29,151 nt of DNA, taken from IMG/VR virus record IMGVR_UViG_3300020176_000067, positions 1 to 29,151 of that record. The stretch is one strand, 5' to 3'. Positions 15,179 to 23,375 of this stretch are shown here, in pieces (position 1 is the stretch's first letter; every line of letters starts with the position of its first letter). Source of the stretch: a virus. The translations under genes and the position numbers were made by a program. The notes beneath the pieces are model-generated. The model made no database searches, was not told the origin of the DNA, and saw only the letters and a program-made list of their open reading frames with translations.

Positions 15179-15810
15179 AATACGAACTTATAATAAACGA
15201 TTCAATTACTGTAAATAACATTAATTTATTTAGGATAAAGGCGCTAAGATCATTTTCAAATGTAGGCGTTAATGAATTGGGCGGCTATATTCAATCTGAA
15301 AAAAACCTAAGCAATACAGGCGATGCGTGGGTATACGGCGATGCGAAGGTATACGGCGATGCGTGGGTATACGGCGATGCGTGGGTATACGGCGATGCGC
15401 AGGTATACGGCGATGCGCGGGTATACGGCGATGCGAAGGTATACGGCGATGCGCGGGTATACGGCGATGCGTGGGTATACGGCGATGCGTGGGTATACGG
15501 CGATGCGCAGGTATACGGCGATGCGCAGGTATACGGCAATGCGGGGGTATACGGCGATGCGAAGGTATACGGCGATGCGCGGGTATACGGCGATGCGCGG
15601 GTGTCTTTTCAAGGCGAATTTATAACGATAGGGCAATTTGGAGATAATTACAGATATTTGACAATATCAAAAAAAGACATAATAAATGCAGGTTGCTTTT
15701 CTGGAAATTTTAGCGACTTTAAAAACGCCGTTACAAATAAGTATGGAAGCGATTATGGAGCTTATAAAAATGCTATTATCATTATTGAAAATTATTTAAA
15801 CAATGACTAA
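15175..15810 (+). CDS. Hexapeptide-repeat (left-handed beta-helix) protein
   Basis: 211 aa. The N-terminus (MKYELIINDSITVNNINLFR, then VGVNELGGYIQSEKNLSNTG) leads into 15 tandem hexapeptides of the form VYGDAx (one VYGNA), about residues 50-143. They are followed by a C-terminal domain ending in KNAIIIIENYLNND. The V-Y-G-D-A-x period fits a left-handed parallel beta-helix, one turn per 18 residues. Similar repeat proteins preceded by ELGGYI are common in phage genomes, but their role is unknown. The x position is W, K, Q, R or G only; everything else is constant. It sits between bet and the exonuclease gene with 4-nt and 8-nt overlaps, so it is expressed with them. Confidence 0.75.
   Translation: MKYELIINDSITVNNINLFRIKALRSFSNVGVNELGGYIQSEKNLSNTGDAWVYGDAKVYGDAWVYGDAWVYGDAQVYGDARVYGDAKVYGDARVYGDAWVYGDAWVYGDAQVYGDAQVYGNAGVYGDAKVYGDARVYGDARVSFQGEFITIGQFGDNYRYLTISKKDIINAGCFSGNFSDFKNAVTNKYGSDYGAYKNAIIIIENYLNND
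15319..15600 (+). repeat. 18-bp tandem repeat array inside the beta-helix gene
   Basis: About 15.7 copies of GGCGATGCG-xxG-GTATAC. Fifteen of the 18 positions are identical in essentially all copies, including the synonymous sites. The only regular variation is in the first two bases of one codon (TGG, AAG, CAG, CGG, GGG). The order of encoded x residues is W K W W Q R K R W W Q Q G K R R, with a longer-range echo (WWQRKR, then WWQQGKRR). No spacers are present, so this is not a CRISPR array. Confidence 0.95.
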
Positions 15811-17945: not shown

Positions 17946-18138
17946 AGCAGACATTCCGGAGGGTTATAAATACGCCGCGGTAAACCTTGATGGGAAAGCG
18001 TACGCCTTCAAAAGTAAGCCATTGCCCTGTTTTGATTTCTCCTGGCAAACGGTCAAAGACGATGAAGAATTTGAGCGAATTAAGGGCAATTTTGATTGGC
18101 ACGACTGGCAAAATTCCCTTGTAAGTGTCGAAGATTAA
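17929..18138 (+). CDS. Small hypothetical protein, last gene of the early operon segment
   Basis: 69 aa. It starts MKKLTKADIPEGYKYAAVNL, then GKAYAFKSKPLPCFDFSWQT and ends in an acidic/aromatic DWHDWQNSLVSVED. This looks like a compact beta protein: in small phage proteins, PEGYKYAAVDxxG openings are common and of unknown function. Its 3' end contains the -33 element of the promoter that drives the structured RNA, so the two transcription units overlap. Confidence 0.5.
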   Translation: MKKLTKADIPEGYKYAAVNLDGKAYAFKSKPLPCFDFSWQTVKDDEEFERIKGNFDWHDWQNSLVSVED

Positions 18139-18149
18139 TCGTATTTTTG
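18119..18149 (+). promoter_or_regulatory. Promoter of the structured RNA
   Basis: TTG at 18119-18121, a 20-nt spacer, then TATTTTTG at 18142-18149: a full match to the Bacteroidota TTG - N19-21 - TAnnTTTG promoter. Transcription would start around 18153-18157, at the 5' edge of the structured RNA. The -33 element lies inside the end of the preceding coding region. Confidence 0.75.
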
Positions 18150-18152
18150 CAA

Positions 18153-18293
18153 CGTCGTAGGACGCGGGCGGGAACCCGTTAAATACAGATTATCAAATAT
18201 GCCTTCGGGCGCTGTGGAGCGGTTTATCTGTACGCTCTTTATTGTATCCTTTTCCCGGAGGGTGCAAGCAGCGGCCGAAGGCATTTTTTTTTT
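18153..18293 (+). ncRNA. Structured RNA with predicted pseudoknot, ending in an intrinsic terminator
   Basis: A 140-nt segment between two genes, behind its own promoter, packed with complementary segments. (1) CGTC/GACG (18153-18156 with 18161-18164), or alternatively GCGGG/CCCGT (18164-18168 with 18175-18179). (2) A long closing stem, 18199-18208 (ATGCCTTCGG) with 18275-18284, extended past one G-G mismatch by 18210-18215 with 18268-18273. (3) Inside it, hairpin GGAGCG/CGCTCT (18216-18221 with 18233-18238). (4) The loop of hairpin 3 contains ATCTGTA (18226-18232), exactly complementary to TACAGAT at 18184-18190 outside the long stem, giving a pseudoknot. Ten Ts follow the closing stem. It could be a stand-alone sRNA or a leader that controls the replication genes starting 8 nt later. 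I recognise no known RNA family. Confidence 0.65.
18199..18293 (+). terminator. Terminator formed by the closing stem of the structured RNA
   Basis: A 10-bp perfect stem (18199-18208 with 18275-18284), plus six more pairs beyond one mismatch, is followed immediately by ten Ts (18284-18293). The next coding start is at 18301, so transcription of the replication genes from this promoter needs read-through. Confidence 0.8.
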
Positions 18294-18300
18294 AATTTTT

Positions 18301-18585
18301 ATGATTTCACTTTCTCAAAAGGCCCTTAAAATATGCGGGCCAAATGAATACTATTTACTTGCTTGCATAGTAGACTACATGAATAACAATGATGCAAACT
18401 TTCCCGATAATGATTATTTATCGGCAATGACCGGCGATACTAATAATATGATTTTTAGGCGTCGAAAAAAATTATTAGATATGGGCGCCTTAAAAATGTA
18501 TTGGGCGATTAATGAAGAAACCGAAAAGCCCGAAAAAAGGTACACGGTAGATTTAGATTGTATAATAATGTTAAACGAAAACTAA
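18301..18585 (+). CDS. Small winged-helix-like protein upstream of the replication gene
   Basis: 94 aa from the ATG at 18301 (MISLSQKALKICGPNEYYLL). An in-frame ATG at 18199 would translate the structured RNA and its T-run and is rejected. It contains LACIVDYMNNNDANFPDNDY, LSAMTGDTNN, and FRRRKKLLDMGALKMY, then a wing-like ekRYTVDLDCI. This plan resembles the N-terminal wHTH of the next gene: a helix pair, N-D/N-K-Y-L/F-A, an RRRKKLL recognition helix and a strand. It may therefore bind the origin or regulate replication. It starts 8 nt after the terminator T-run. Function inferred. Confidence 0.55.
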   Translation: MISLSQKALKICGPNEYYLLACIVDYMNNNDANFPDNDYLSAMTGDTNNMIFRRRKKLLDMGALKMYWAINEETEKPEKRYTVDLDCIIMLNEN

Positions 18586-18588
18586 GCC

Positions 18589-19518
18589 ATGAAACAAAGC
18601 GATCCAGGATTTATAGCTTATTTGCCGTCAAAAGTAAGGTACGACAACTCACTGCCTTTTGGTGCGCGTATTATTTACGCCGAAATTTCAGCCCTTTGCA
18701 ATTCGAAGGGCTACTGCTGGGCTAACAATAAATACTTTGCAGATTTATACAATAACAGCAAGGACACGATTTCTCGATGGATTTCAGACCTTGAAAAGGC
18801 TGGTTATATTAAGTGTTTTGTCGCTCAGGATGAAGGCAACTCAAGGAAGATTTATTTAGTAAATGCTTCTCTTGACTACCTATCGGAAGAAATGCAGTCA
18901 CGGCAAAAACAAAGCGAGCTATCCGTAAAAAGCCCGAAAGGGTCGCGGCAAAAAAACCGAGAGGGTATAGGTAAAAATGCCGAACATAATAGTATAGTTA
19001 ATAATACACTTAATAATACAGTTAATAGTAATAGCGCTAACGCGCATTTTTCCTTTCTTCAAAATGAGGATCAAGAAAATTCTGCTACTCAAAAAGCTGA
19101 ACCAACTACCATTAAAGGGAGAAAAAAGAACGAGGATGTACACCGGGCCGACCTATTACAAAAAAATGCAATACAACTAAAAGAAGAGTTTATTGCGGAG
19201 TTGGAGCGGAAAGGCATTGCGCACTACTACGAACCGTTTAAGGCTGCTTGGTTGGAATGGATTAGGTATAAAAAGGAGATTAAGAATACATACAAGTCAG
19301 CACAAAGCGCGGCAACTGGATTTAAAAGCATGCTTGAAAAAAGCAAATACAATCCGGAAACGGCATTGAGGATTGTAGAAACGGCGGTTGCAAATTGCTG
19401 GAAAGGCATACAGGAAGAGCGGCAACAGTTTAAGCCATCAGGAAAAAGCAAAGTGCAAGAGCAACATGAGGACTTAGTTAGTTATGTAATAAATAAAAGG
19501 AATTTATTAAATGGATAA
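18589..19518 (+). CDS. Phage replication initiator / helix-turn-helix protein (O/DnaD-like)
   Basis: 309 aa. The N-terminal wHTH (about residues 10-95) has GFIAYLPSKVRYDNSLPFGA, NNKYFADLYNNSKDTISRWI and SDLEKAGYIKCF, the helix-turn-helix of phage replication proteins of the HTH_36 type. A low-complexity Asn/Ser/Lys linker (residues 105-190) follows. The C-terminal helical domain (YEPFKAAWLEWIRYKKEIKN and onward to SMLEKSKYNPETALRIVETA) resembles the part that contacts the helicase. The predicted role is origin recognition and helicase recruitment. It starts 3 nt after the preceding gene and overlaps the putative loader by 8 nt. Confidence 0.65.
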   Translation: MKQSDPGFIAYLPSKVRYDNSLPFGARIIYAEISALCNSKGYCWANNKYFADLYNNSKDTISRWISDLEKAGYIKCFVAQDEGNSRKIYLVNASLDYLSEEMQSRQKQSELSVKSPKGSRQKNREGIGKNAEHNSIVNNTLNNTVNSNSANAHFSFLQNEDQENSATQKAEPTTIKGRKKNEDVHRADLLQKNAIQLKEEFIAELERKGIAHYYEPFKAAWLEWIRYKKEIKNTYKSAQSAATGFKSMLEKSKYNPETALRIVETAVANCWKGIQEERQQFKPSGKSKVQEQHEDLVSYVINKRNLLNG

Positions 19519-21116: not shown

Positions 21117-21149
21117 ACTTTTTATTATCACTTATTGTATATACATTTG
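21117..21149 (+). promoter_or_regulatory. Early promoter P2 (TACATTTGCA class)
   Basis: TACATTTG at 21142-21149 followed by CA is identical to the -7 block of P1 and P3. The expected -33 position (about 21117) has CTTT rather than TTTG, so it may be weaker or need help. It lies 25 nt upstream of the ATG at 21174 and excludes the in-frame TTG at 21135. Confidence 0.6.
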
Positions 21150-21173
21150 CAATTCAATTTAAACTTAACTATT

Positions 21174-23375
21174 ATGTTACCGGATCAAGATTACATCGAA
21201 CTATTACAACGAAAGCTCAAAAAGCACGCCGCCACCGGCGTAGAGGTTGCGCAAAACGACCTAAACGCGCACTTATTCCCATTCCAACGCTACATTGTAC
21301 AACGAGCGCTAAAAGCGGGCAAATACGCCATTTTTGCGGATTGTGGACTTGGCAAAACGCTTATGCAATTGGAGTGGGCAAATCAGGTAGTGCAATTTAC
21401 TCAAAAGCCGGTTTTGATACTGGCGCCGTTGGCAGTTAGTCCGCAAACGATTGCACAGGGCGAACGCTTCGGGATTGAGTGCCAAAAGTACTCCGGACAG
21501 ACATTGCCGGGAGTGTATATCATCAACTATGAGCAGTTAAAGAACATTGAGTGTTCAATTTTTGGCGGTGTCGTACTCGATGAAAGCTCCATCCTGAAAA
21601 ACTTTACTGGCGTTTATAAGCAGCTTATTATCGAAGCCTTTACCGGTACACGATTTAAGCTCGCTTGTACAGCTACTCCCGCGCCTAACGACTTGAACGA
21701 GATTGGAAACCATTCTGAGTTTCTCGACGTGATGGACGCAAACGACATGCGAATGAGGTGGTTTGTTCGCGACGAGGGTATGAATAATTACCGGCTAAAA
21801 GGTCACGCCGAATCGGATTTTTACGGATGGATCGCGAGTTGGAGTAGCGTACTTAGAAGCCCGTCGGATTTGGGATTTGAGTCGGTCGGATATGATCTGC
21901 CTTCGCTCAACTTTTTTGAAAAAGAGATTGAAGTCGAAAAACGCGAAAACGGAATGTTGTTCAATAGCGCATCGGTAAACGCGACCGACTTTAATAAGGA
22001 GCTAAGATTGACGATACTTCCAAGAATTGAAGCAGTTGCCGAAATTGTAAACAAGTCCAAAGAGTCGTTTATTATTTGGGTCAACCAAGATGCCGAAGAG
22101 GATCAAGTACTTAAACTTATTCCGGAGGCGGTTGGCGTTCGTGGCTCCGAACCGCAGGACAAAAAAGAGTCTAAGTTGATAGGATTTGCCAATGGCGATT
22201 TTCGTATTTTGGTCACTAAGAAAAAGATCGCCCAATTCGGCCTTAATTATCAGCACTGCAATAACCAAGTTTTTGCAAGTTTAGATTTTTCGTTTGAGGG
22301 TCTATACCAAGCCATTAGGCGTTCGTATCGGTTCGGCCAAAAGAATGAAGTAAACATTTACCTTATTACCACTAACACAATGGCAAATGTCGTTCAATCA
22401 ATTGCCAACAAACAAGCTCAATTTGATAAAATGATGAATGAGATTACTAACCAGGTAAACGCAAAAACGTTTGATCTTAAATTAGATTATAACCGCCGGG
22501 AAGTTAAAACGGAACACTTTCATATCATCAATGGCGACTCCTGCGAACTCATTAAGGAAATACCGGATAATTCAATAGACCTAAGCGTGTTTAGTCCTCC
22601 ATTTAGTACGCTGTTTACATATTCAGATAATATCCGGGATATGGGTAATTGCGAGTCGGACGAACAGTTTTTCGAGCAACAACGATTCCTACTCAAAGAG
22701 CTTTACCGGATCATTAAGCCCGGGCGACTTGTTTGTGTCCACTCTAAAGATTTAGCCCGCTACAAGAACTCCTCCGGCTTTTCAGGTATGTGGGACTTTA
22801 CTGGCGCCTATCATCGCGCGATGGAAGAGGCCGGATTCAAATACCATTCCAAGATTACTATTTGGATCGATCCGGTACTTGAAATGCAGCGCACCAAAAC
22901 ACAACGCCTATTGTACAAGCAGGTAACAACCGATTCGAGCTACTCCGGTATAGGTATGCCCGAGTACATAACCATTTTCCGCAAGTGGGAAGGCGATGAG
23001 GCAGAATGGACGCCAATCACCAACAAGACAAAACAAAACTTTGATCTTAATACCTGGCAAAAGTGGGCTTCGCCGGTTTGGATGGATATTGATCGTACCA
23101 ACGTGCTAAACAATTACAAGGGCGCTAAAGAAGAAAAGGACGAAAAACATATTGCGCCGCTCCAACTTGACATTATCGAGCGTTGTATAGCTATGTGGTC
23201 AAATCCAGGAGAAACTATCTTTACTCCTTTTTTGGGCATTGGCTCCGAAGTATTCCAAGCGGTTAAGATGAACCGTAAAGGCATCGGATTTGAATTGAAG
23301 GAATCCTATTTTGATTTGGCGGCCCGGAATTGCGCTGCGGCGGTTGAGTCTAAAAAGCAGTTATCTTTTTTTTGA
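21174..23375 (+). CDS. SNF2-like helicase fused to a beta-class DNA methyltransferase
   Basis: 733 aa from the ATG at 21174 (MLPDQDYIELLQRKLKKHAA). The N-terminal two thirds are a superfamily-2 ATPase: a Q-like FPFQRYIV, Walker A DCGLGKT (Lys61), Walker B-like VVLDESS (residues 134-139), motif III CTATPAPND, and motif VI-like IRRSYRFGQKNEVNIY near residue 385. The last third is an amino-methyltransferase in beta order: motif IV SPPF near residue 475, then FTPFLGIGSEVFQAVKMNRK (motif I) near 683 and GIGFELKESYFDLA. Such helicase-methyltransferase fusions occur in phages and are thought to modify DNA and counter restriction (P1 DarB is a well-known relative by architecture). Target base (N4-C or N6-A) is not determined. 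Transcribed from P2. Confidence 0.85.
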   Translation: MLPDQDYIELLQRKLKKHAATGVEVAQNDLNAHLFPFQRYIVQRALKAGKYAIFADCGLGKTLMQLEWANQVVQFTQKPVLILAPLAVSPQTIAQGERFGIECQKYSGQTLPGVYIINYEQLKNIECSIFGGVVLDESSILKNFTGVYKQLIIEAFTGTRFKLACTATPAPNDLNEIGNHSEFLDVMDANDMRMRWFVRDEGMNNYRLKGHAESDFYGWIASWSSVLRSPSDLGFESVGYDLPSLNFFEKEIEVEKRENGMLFNSASVNATDFNKELRLTILPRIEAVAEIVNKSKESFIIWVNQDAEEDQVLKLIPEAVGVRGSEPQDKKESKLIGFANGDFRILVTKKKIAQFGLNYQHCNNQVFASLDFSFEGLYQAIRRSYRFGQKNEVNIYLITTNTMANVVQSIANKQAQFDKMMNEITNQVNAKTFDLKLDYNRREVKTEHFHIINGDSCELIKEIPDNSIDLSVFSPPFSTLFTYSDNIRDMGNCESDEQFFEQQRFLLKELYRIIKPGRLVCVHSKDLARYKNSSGFSGMWDFTGAYHRAMEEAGFKYHSKITIWIDPVLEMQRTKTQRLLYKQVTTDSSYSGIGMPEYITIFRKWEGDEAEWTPITNKTKQNFDLNTWQKWASPVWMDIDRTNVLNNYKGAKEEKDEKHIAPLQLDIIERCIAMWSNPGETIFTPFLGIGSEVFQAVKMNRKGIGFELKESYFDLAARNCAAAVESKKQLSFF

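Follow-up and report, generated by a model that had tools for sequence, protein, structure and literature searches.

The packaging RNA of phage phi29 forms a three-way junction that is closed by a long stem and carries two loops for kissing; these loops pair between molecules, and the role of the RNA is DNA packaging. Two phage RNAs are associated with premature termination or read-through according to an excerpt of PMC4825925: the sRNA IsrK of prophage Gifsy-1 (Salmonella) occurs as a terminated short form and as a read-through mRNA form, and in case of P4 an antisense RNA causes premature termination and prevents replication-gene expression. C4 antisense RNAs have been recorded in Proteobacteria and phages (PMC2864571). 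How replication genes are controlled is poorly known in phages other than a few models. Here we describe an RNA of approximately 140 nt from a 29-kb fragment of an uncultured IMG/VR phage (29,151 nt, analysed at full length and referred to as the window), which we regard as probably, if by no means certainly, an attenuator-type 5' leader of the phage replication operon.

Together with its promoter, the RNA occupies the gap that separates a 69-aa gene from a small replication gene (Table 1). TTG and TATTTTTG at a 20-nt spacing are present as given in a preliminary description of this DNA, and due to this TTG-N20-TAnnTTTG promoter a Bacteroidota host is most likely for the window phage. A TAnnTTTG −7 box was observed upstream of all 21 members (loci in other phages are given with L numbers), and the full TTG-N20-TAnnTTTG motif in the window, L009, L002, L049, L045, L012, L013, and L042. 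The RNA folds far better than its dinucleotide shuffles (z = −6.3, 0/200). The closing stem previously described with 10+6 pairs exists but is slightly shorter, since P1 consists of 9 and 5 Watson-Crick pairs separated by one G.G mismatch (14 bp), and it encloses not a single hairpin, the known P2, but additionally a second one, P3. As expected for an intrinsic terminator, this GC-rich stem is situated directly before the U run, whose ten Ts had been correctly recognised, and the same arrangement occurs in all homologues. Two long-range pairings connect the 5' part of the RNA to the loops within P1. The pseudoknot PK1 joins TACAGAT of the linker to ATCTGTA of the P2 loop, which are exactly complementary over 7 bp as already reported, and the complementarity persists in homologues with changed letters. 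In the second pairing, a kiss of 6 bp, the entire six-base P0 loop is engaged with the P3 loop; this interaction as well as the hairpins H0 and P0 had been overlooked. The plan H0-P0-P1[P2,P3] is reproduced by nested folding alone in five divergent members, and H0 is made by different sequences in L041, L042, and L128. The fold, the T run, and the adjoining genes bear out the view of a phage-encoded structured RNA with a built-in terminator just before replication genes.

Table 1. Features of the RNA locus and of the genes behind it (positions within the window)
Feature	Position	Strand	Remarks
Bacteroidota-type promoter	18119–18149	+	TTG 18119–18121, 20-nt spacer, TATTTTTG 18142–18149
H0, 5' mini-hairpin GUC[GUAG]GAC at predicted transcript start	18154–18163	+	
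P0 hairpin, stem GCGGG/CCCGU	18164–18179	+	stem changes double-sided
P0 loop CGGGAA (kissing strand)	18169–18174	+	
Linker strand UACAGAU of pseudoknot PK1	18184–18190	+	pairs with 18226–18232
P1 5' strand (closing/terminator stem)	18200–18214	+	
P2 hairpin	18217–18237	+	stem 18217–18221/18233–18237; loop strand AUCUGUA 18226–18232 (PK1)
P3 hairpin	18242–18267	+	loop strand UUCCCG 18252–18257 kisses P0 loop
P1 3' strand	18269–18283	+	
Ten-T run, intrinsic terminator	18284–18293	+	T run after P1 in all members
First replication-operon gene, 94-aa small winged-helix-like protein	18301–18585	+	weak hit (E = 0.0034) to the replication initiation protein phrog_270
Replication initiator	18589–19518	+	HTH_36; phrog_19658/270/186

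Close relatives of the RNA in L009, L002, L045, L049, L012, and L013 were found via neighbouring proteins and sequence patterns, and L009, L002, L012, and L013 share 72–94% identity over the RNA (blastn). Within this close family, the kiss occurs as CGGGAA/UUCCCG, CGGCAA/UUGCCG, and GUGCAA/UUGCAC, and the pseudoknot as UACAGAU/AUCUGUA, ACGAGA/UCUCGU, AUAGGU/ACCUAU, CAUACU/GGUAUG, and CAUAGU/GCUAUG. Paired cells account for 99.2% in the alignment of the family, compared to 38–44% with the partners slid. Eleven pairs changed on both sides (10 according to RNAalifold, independently), and 3 of the 6 kiss pairs do so. Covariation in homologues, set beforehand as a test of the fold, was thus found for P0, P2, P3, the kiss, and the pseudoknot. 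In case of P1 the outcome is divided: the stem is constant within the close family, in which the loops diverge, and is formed by wholly different, still complementary sequences in distant lineages. The window and L009 differ, with one exception, exclusively in or beside the pseudoknot strands; an inserted G on one of these strands is matched by an inserted C, and the P2 loop comprises 11 nt in the window and 10 nt in L009.

Distant members share the topology of the RNA rather than its sequence. L041 was obtained as a weak covariance match with the same topology and unrelated sequence, and L042 and L128 by a script that demands a long terminator stem with inner hairpin loops pairing with upstream loops. 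The first members were already known when this script was written; shuffled, reversed, and unrelated DNA served as controls for its thresholds. A strand-by-strand check of the eight distinct sequences of this class (class I) revealed 100% standard pairs for H0, P0, P2, the kiss, and PK1, 96% for P3, and 95% for P1, with the unequal P3 strands of L042 assigned by hand and imperfectly. Complementarity of PK1 is kept in 8 of 8 homologues by 8 different sequences, and both long-range pairings are retained across four class I lineages that have almost no sequence in common. Most close members belong to related phages, and the number of independent lineages is approximately four for class I and six for class II (see below). 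When partners were permuted, the true assignment was best for the P0 and P3 loops (1/720) as well as for the linker strands and P2 loops (1/40,320). A scan with a strict descriptor returned 10 class I matches from nine loci, one match being an overlap; six shuffles, reversed DNA, and 341 kb of unrelated genome loci gave no match. Furthermore, the spacer between the PK1 strand and P1 lengthens with P1 (9–26 nt for 15–20 layers, Spearman 0.81), in keeping with a linker that follows P1 up to the P2 loop. Judged from these lengths, the pairing would fit within a single molecule, and the relation is also compatible with dimers.

A simpler RNA is found at a comparable place in ten related phages (class II). 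It possesses a P0 hairpin of 9–14 bp whose loop pairs over 6–7 bp with the loop of the terminator hairpin, and the −7 box is located 98–107 nt before the T run in each of the ten phages. Six distinct kiss sequence pairs occur, for which the true assignment again was best upon permutation (1/720). Weak covariance matches of the L020 type, at first glance plain terminators, actually carry this kiss between P0 and the terminator loop. Among eight named Bacteroidota phages (339 kb), a single match was obtained, in the cultured Flavobacterium phage 11b (L159); shuffles gave 0.15 per scan, and the remaining seven phages none. The class II RNA of phage 11b (NC_006356.2:33621-33738) is unannotated in the record and comprises a P0 loop CGGGCAGG pairing over 8 bp with the terminator-hairpin loop CCUGCCCG, followed by an ATG 18 nt after the T run. 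A single-structure folding program misses this RNA, since in a nested model the hairpins lose out to the kiss. Classes I and II have layout and position in common.

Similar arrangements were observed elsewhere. On the minus strand of L052, a Bacteroidota-type phage, an RNA with promoter TACATTTG, an H0 of GUC-UUCG-GAC, and a T run at approximately 2638 stands between both classes, its P0 loop GUAGCGG pairing over 7 bp with CCGCUAC in the terminator hairpin. The same layout outside the Bacteroidota-type phages is given by L163:3297-3441. In this phage, which has a sigma-70-type promoter, a 5-bp hairpin carries the loop UUGGUC, whose partner GACCAA lies within a terminator stem of 17 bp. The structure is situated 17 nt ahead of a Rha/KilAC antirepressor gene, with initiator and DnaB genes behind it. 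An additional 6-bp linker/P2 pairing of this RNA has no spacer to span P1 and may be due to chance, so that only the P0 kiss was counted as credible. The same layout is present in the GC-rich phage or provirus L169 (4950-5093), where the loop UGAUCCC pairs with GGGAUCA in a long terminator stem, and a GTG start is situated 16 or 22 nt downstream. The terminators at L025:1537, L036:540, and L035:4971, located 16–18 nt before a gene, are plain hairpins without such pairings by eye. Together with L017:1479, L018:2717, L019:1140, L020:4684, and L029:1465, these loci share a second conserved hairpin of the class II phages, mostly GTAGTAAGG...CCTTACTAC-TTTTT and in L018 GTAACCAGG...CCTGGTTAC, with a repeated GTGTTTTAGTGTATTAGTGTT-like stretch 5' and a gene directly 3'; possibly this is another leader terminator. 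The string TTTGCAAAGTCTTAGGAC, identical to the promoter/H0 start of the window RNA, was also encountered at L054:6781-6798 and L056:11394-11411, where it opens a leader ahead of a tRNA-like stretch; both are large phages, one of them on a 327-kb contig, and this identity may be due to chance. Within the window itself, an 18-bp tandem repeat (15314-15620) lies in a gene and gives rise to a protein with approximately 17 repeats of VYGDA(K/W/Q/R), and a single ORF (21135-23375) encodes a SNF2-type helicase fused to an N6/N4 DNA methyltransferase.

The preliminary description knew of no matching family, and Rfam 15 indeed gave no match in the window at the gathering threshold, nothing relevant up to E = 10 around the RNA, and none at the RNA positions in L128, L041, L016, L017, L020, L029, and L035. 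The C4 covariance model (RF01695) matched neither the window nor the proteobacterial-type L163 and L169. Exact and gapped patterns recovered only the close family from IMG/VR, and all 45 pattern matches in isolate genomes lacked the rest of the stem and were dismissed as chance. Searches by blastn against named phages and plasmids yielded short chance matches only. In 395 Bacteroidota genomes each, the covariance models R1 and R2 remained without a match, a weak result due to the narrowness of these models. A search of open-access papers yielded no account of the fold. A fold unmatched in Rfam, with two long-range pairings, thus recurs before replication operons, and neither sequence search nor standard covariance models could find it because the phages have almost no RNA sequence in common.

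In the window, the start codon of the first gene is situated 17 nt after the first and 7 nt after the last T of the terminator. In an automatic ORF check, 20 of 21 members had a start codon downstream of the first T at a distance of 14–19 nt. The exception is L013, where inspection revealed an ATG at 15 nt opening a 37-codon ORF below the cut-off of the script. Behind other terminators in the same phages this spacing was observed in 3 of 35 cases (Fisher p ~4e-11, or ~9e-8 with lineages collapsed). Replication initiators (PHROG, Pfam) are encoded in the same direction within one to three genes in the window, L009, L012, L042, L128, and L020. All members that were checked lie at or near the head of a replication operon, with differing first genes. 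The close relatives L002, L045, and L049 retain the RNA although another gene has taken the place behind it, and the RNA is thus tied to the operon head and not to one particular gene. As in attenuator leaders, the terminator is located between promoter and start codon at a spacing that is constant in homologues. The gap from terminator to start codon is too short to hold a promoter. Any transcript of the first gene must therefore pass the terminator, be it started at the local promoter or upstream.

The structure of the RNA is well supported, and from it we infer a mechanism for the proposed attenuator-type leader. Polymerase would start at the promoter just upstream of the RNA, and the 5' half, i.e., P0 and the single-stranded linker, would pair with the P3 and P2 loops inside the terminator stem P1. 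Most transcripts would then stop at the U run and release a compact, stable RNA of ~140 nt, which would be shielded by a hairpin at either end and held together by the two long-range pairings. A minority would read through, presumably the route to the replication-gene mRNA, with the start codon 14–19 nt further on leaving just enough space for a ribosome. In this way the leader would set, and possibly gate, the expression of the replication genes. The knot may affect termination or RNA stability, and the leader may respond to a signal. Candidate roles of the knot are to stabilise the released RNA, to tune termination, to bind a factor, or to recognise other copies in trans.

Alternatively, the RNA may be a free-standing phage sRNA, trans-acting or protein-binding, with a constitutive terminator and a next gene that is merely packed close and driven otherwise, which we consider possible although on the whole unlikely. 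The own promoter, the 5' protective hairpin, the strong terminator, and the compact fold suit such an sRNA, as do the conservation of the RNA but not of the downstream gene and the fact that no conserved antiterminator was found. In contrast, the start-codon spacing is far tighter than behind other terminators of the same phages, a conserved unpaired seed is not apparent, and the longest complement within the phage's own genome (11–12 nt) equals that of shuffled RNA. The tight spacing favours a cis leader role with the free RNA as terminated product. As a counterpoint, packing alone may bring genes into close vicinity of terminators in compact phage genomes; moreover, given the great strength of P1 as a terminator and the negative search for a conserved antiterminator, termination may be constitutive and the operon driven differently. 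Rather doubtful is a trans control of immunity or copy number similar to that by the P4 CI RNA, in which the released RNA would kiss the loops of nascent leaders and raise termination before the replication genes, the loops diverging so that each phage recognises its own kind. It would account for the two complementary loop pairs directly upstream of replication genes, for diverging loops around a constant P1 in the close family, and for the differences between the window and L009, almost confined to the pseudoknot strands and including an inserted pair made good on both sides; P4, according to the same excerpt of PMC4825925, blocks its replication genes by premature termination through an antisense RNA. 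However, the same pairings are possible within one molecule, for which the spacer lengths fit, and neutral compensatory drift equally explains the divergence of the loops. The broader notion that phages of several phyla share a layout of knotted leader terminators, with free copies of the RNA sensing the nascent leaders of their own phage via rapidly changing loop pairs, is likewise doubtful. If true, it would amount to a dose-sensing, self-specific brake on the replication operon, like plasmid copy-number RNAs, with the sensor inside the terminator.

A riboswitch for a ligand or a leader that senses a protein, in either case with competition between knot and terminator, is in accordance with the leader position, the terminator, and a pseudoknotted fold like that of several riboswitch expression platforms, and a riboswitch-type switch had been suggested earlier. 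This suggestion found no support here. By nested-structure prediction, no antiterminator competing for the 5' strand of P1 is common to the homologues, this strand pairing differently in each of them as long as its 3' partner has not been made, which argues against a classic riboswitch. An invariant unpaired ligand pocket is missing in four lineages with almost no common sequence, the first genes differ, and the spacer before P1 grows with P1 length as if pseudoknot and stem coexist. We rate such a sensor as very improbable. It is barely conceivable that an ordinary terminator shows complementarity by chance, or that the stretch acts at the DNA level, for instance as an origin hairpin, or codes for protein. 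Terminators are common, and one in-frame ATG (18199) occurs in P1, but the homologue data already contradict this reading: chance is excluded by the permutation, shuffle, and slide controls, G.U pairs and the correctly placed promoter point to RNA, and coding was rejected because of compensatory substitutions and frame-breaking length changes, the 1-nt change of the P2 loop between the window and L009 breaking any frame.

A knot that many phages keep while its letters are rewritten suggests that viral DNA replication is subject to a hitherto unrecognised form of control by RNA. The element is concrete and testable, and Flavobacterium phage 11b provides a cultured representative. More members may be found with a simple descriptor, i.e., a 5' hairpin loop pairing into a terminator stem and a start codon 14–19 nt further on.

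Like the phi29 packaging RNA, the window RNA possesses a long stem closing a three-way junction and two kissing loops, but these loops pair with its own 5' part and its neighbours are replication genes. Covarying kissing loops and RNA-only folds are shared with GOLLD, ROOL, and OLE, of which GOLLD and ROOL occur in phages (PMC12286853); those RNAs are far larger and form multimers via intermolecular kissing, whereas the window RNA comprises ~140 nt and ends in a terminator. C4 antisense RNA (RF01695) is close to the window RNA in size and likewise occurs in phages, where it precedes regulatory genes, but no Rfam match was obtained even at E = 10. In common with IsrK as described in the excerpt of PMC4825925, the window RNA is a phage RNA with its own promoter and an intrinsic terminator directly upstream of phage genes. 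By contrast, the short form of IsrK activates translation of the long one and governs the expression of an antirepressor; an Rfam link between the two is missing, and that excerpt reports no two-loop knot for IsrK. The likeness to the P4 CI RNA, based on the same excerpt, comprises a leader before replication genes, premature termination, and complementary segments within one leader, which were found here as well. The CI RNA arises by processing of a longer transcript, and its partners are seqA and seqC (PMC4825925), whereas the window RNA terminates at a stem of its own, on which the partner loops are carried. IsrK and P4 are analogies to the leader RNA and not its relatives.
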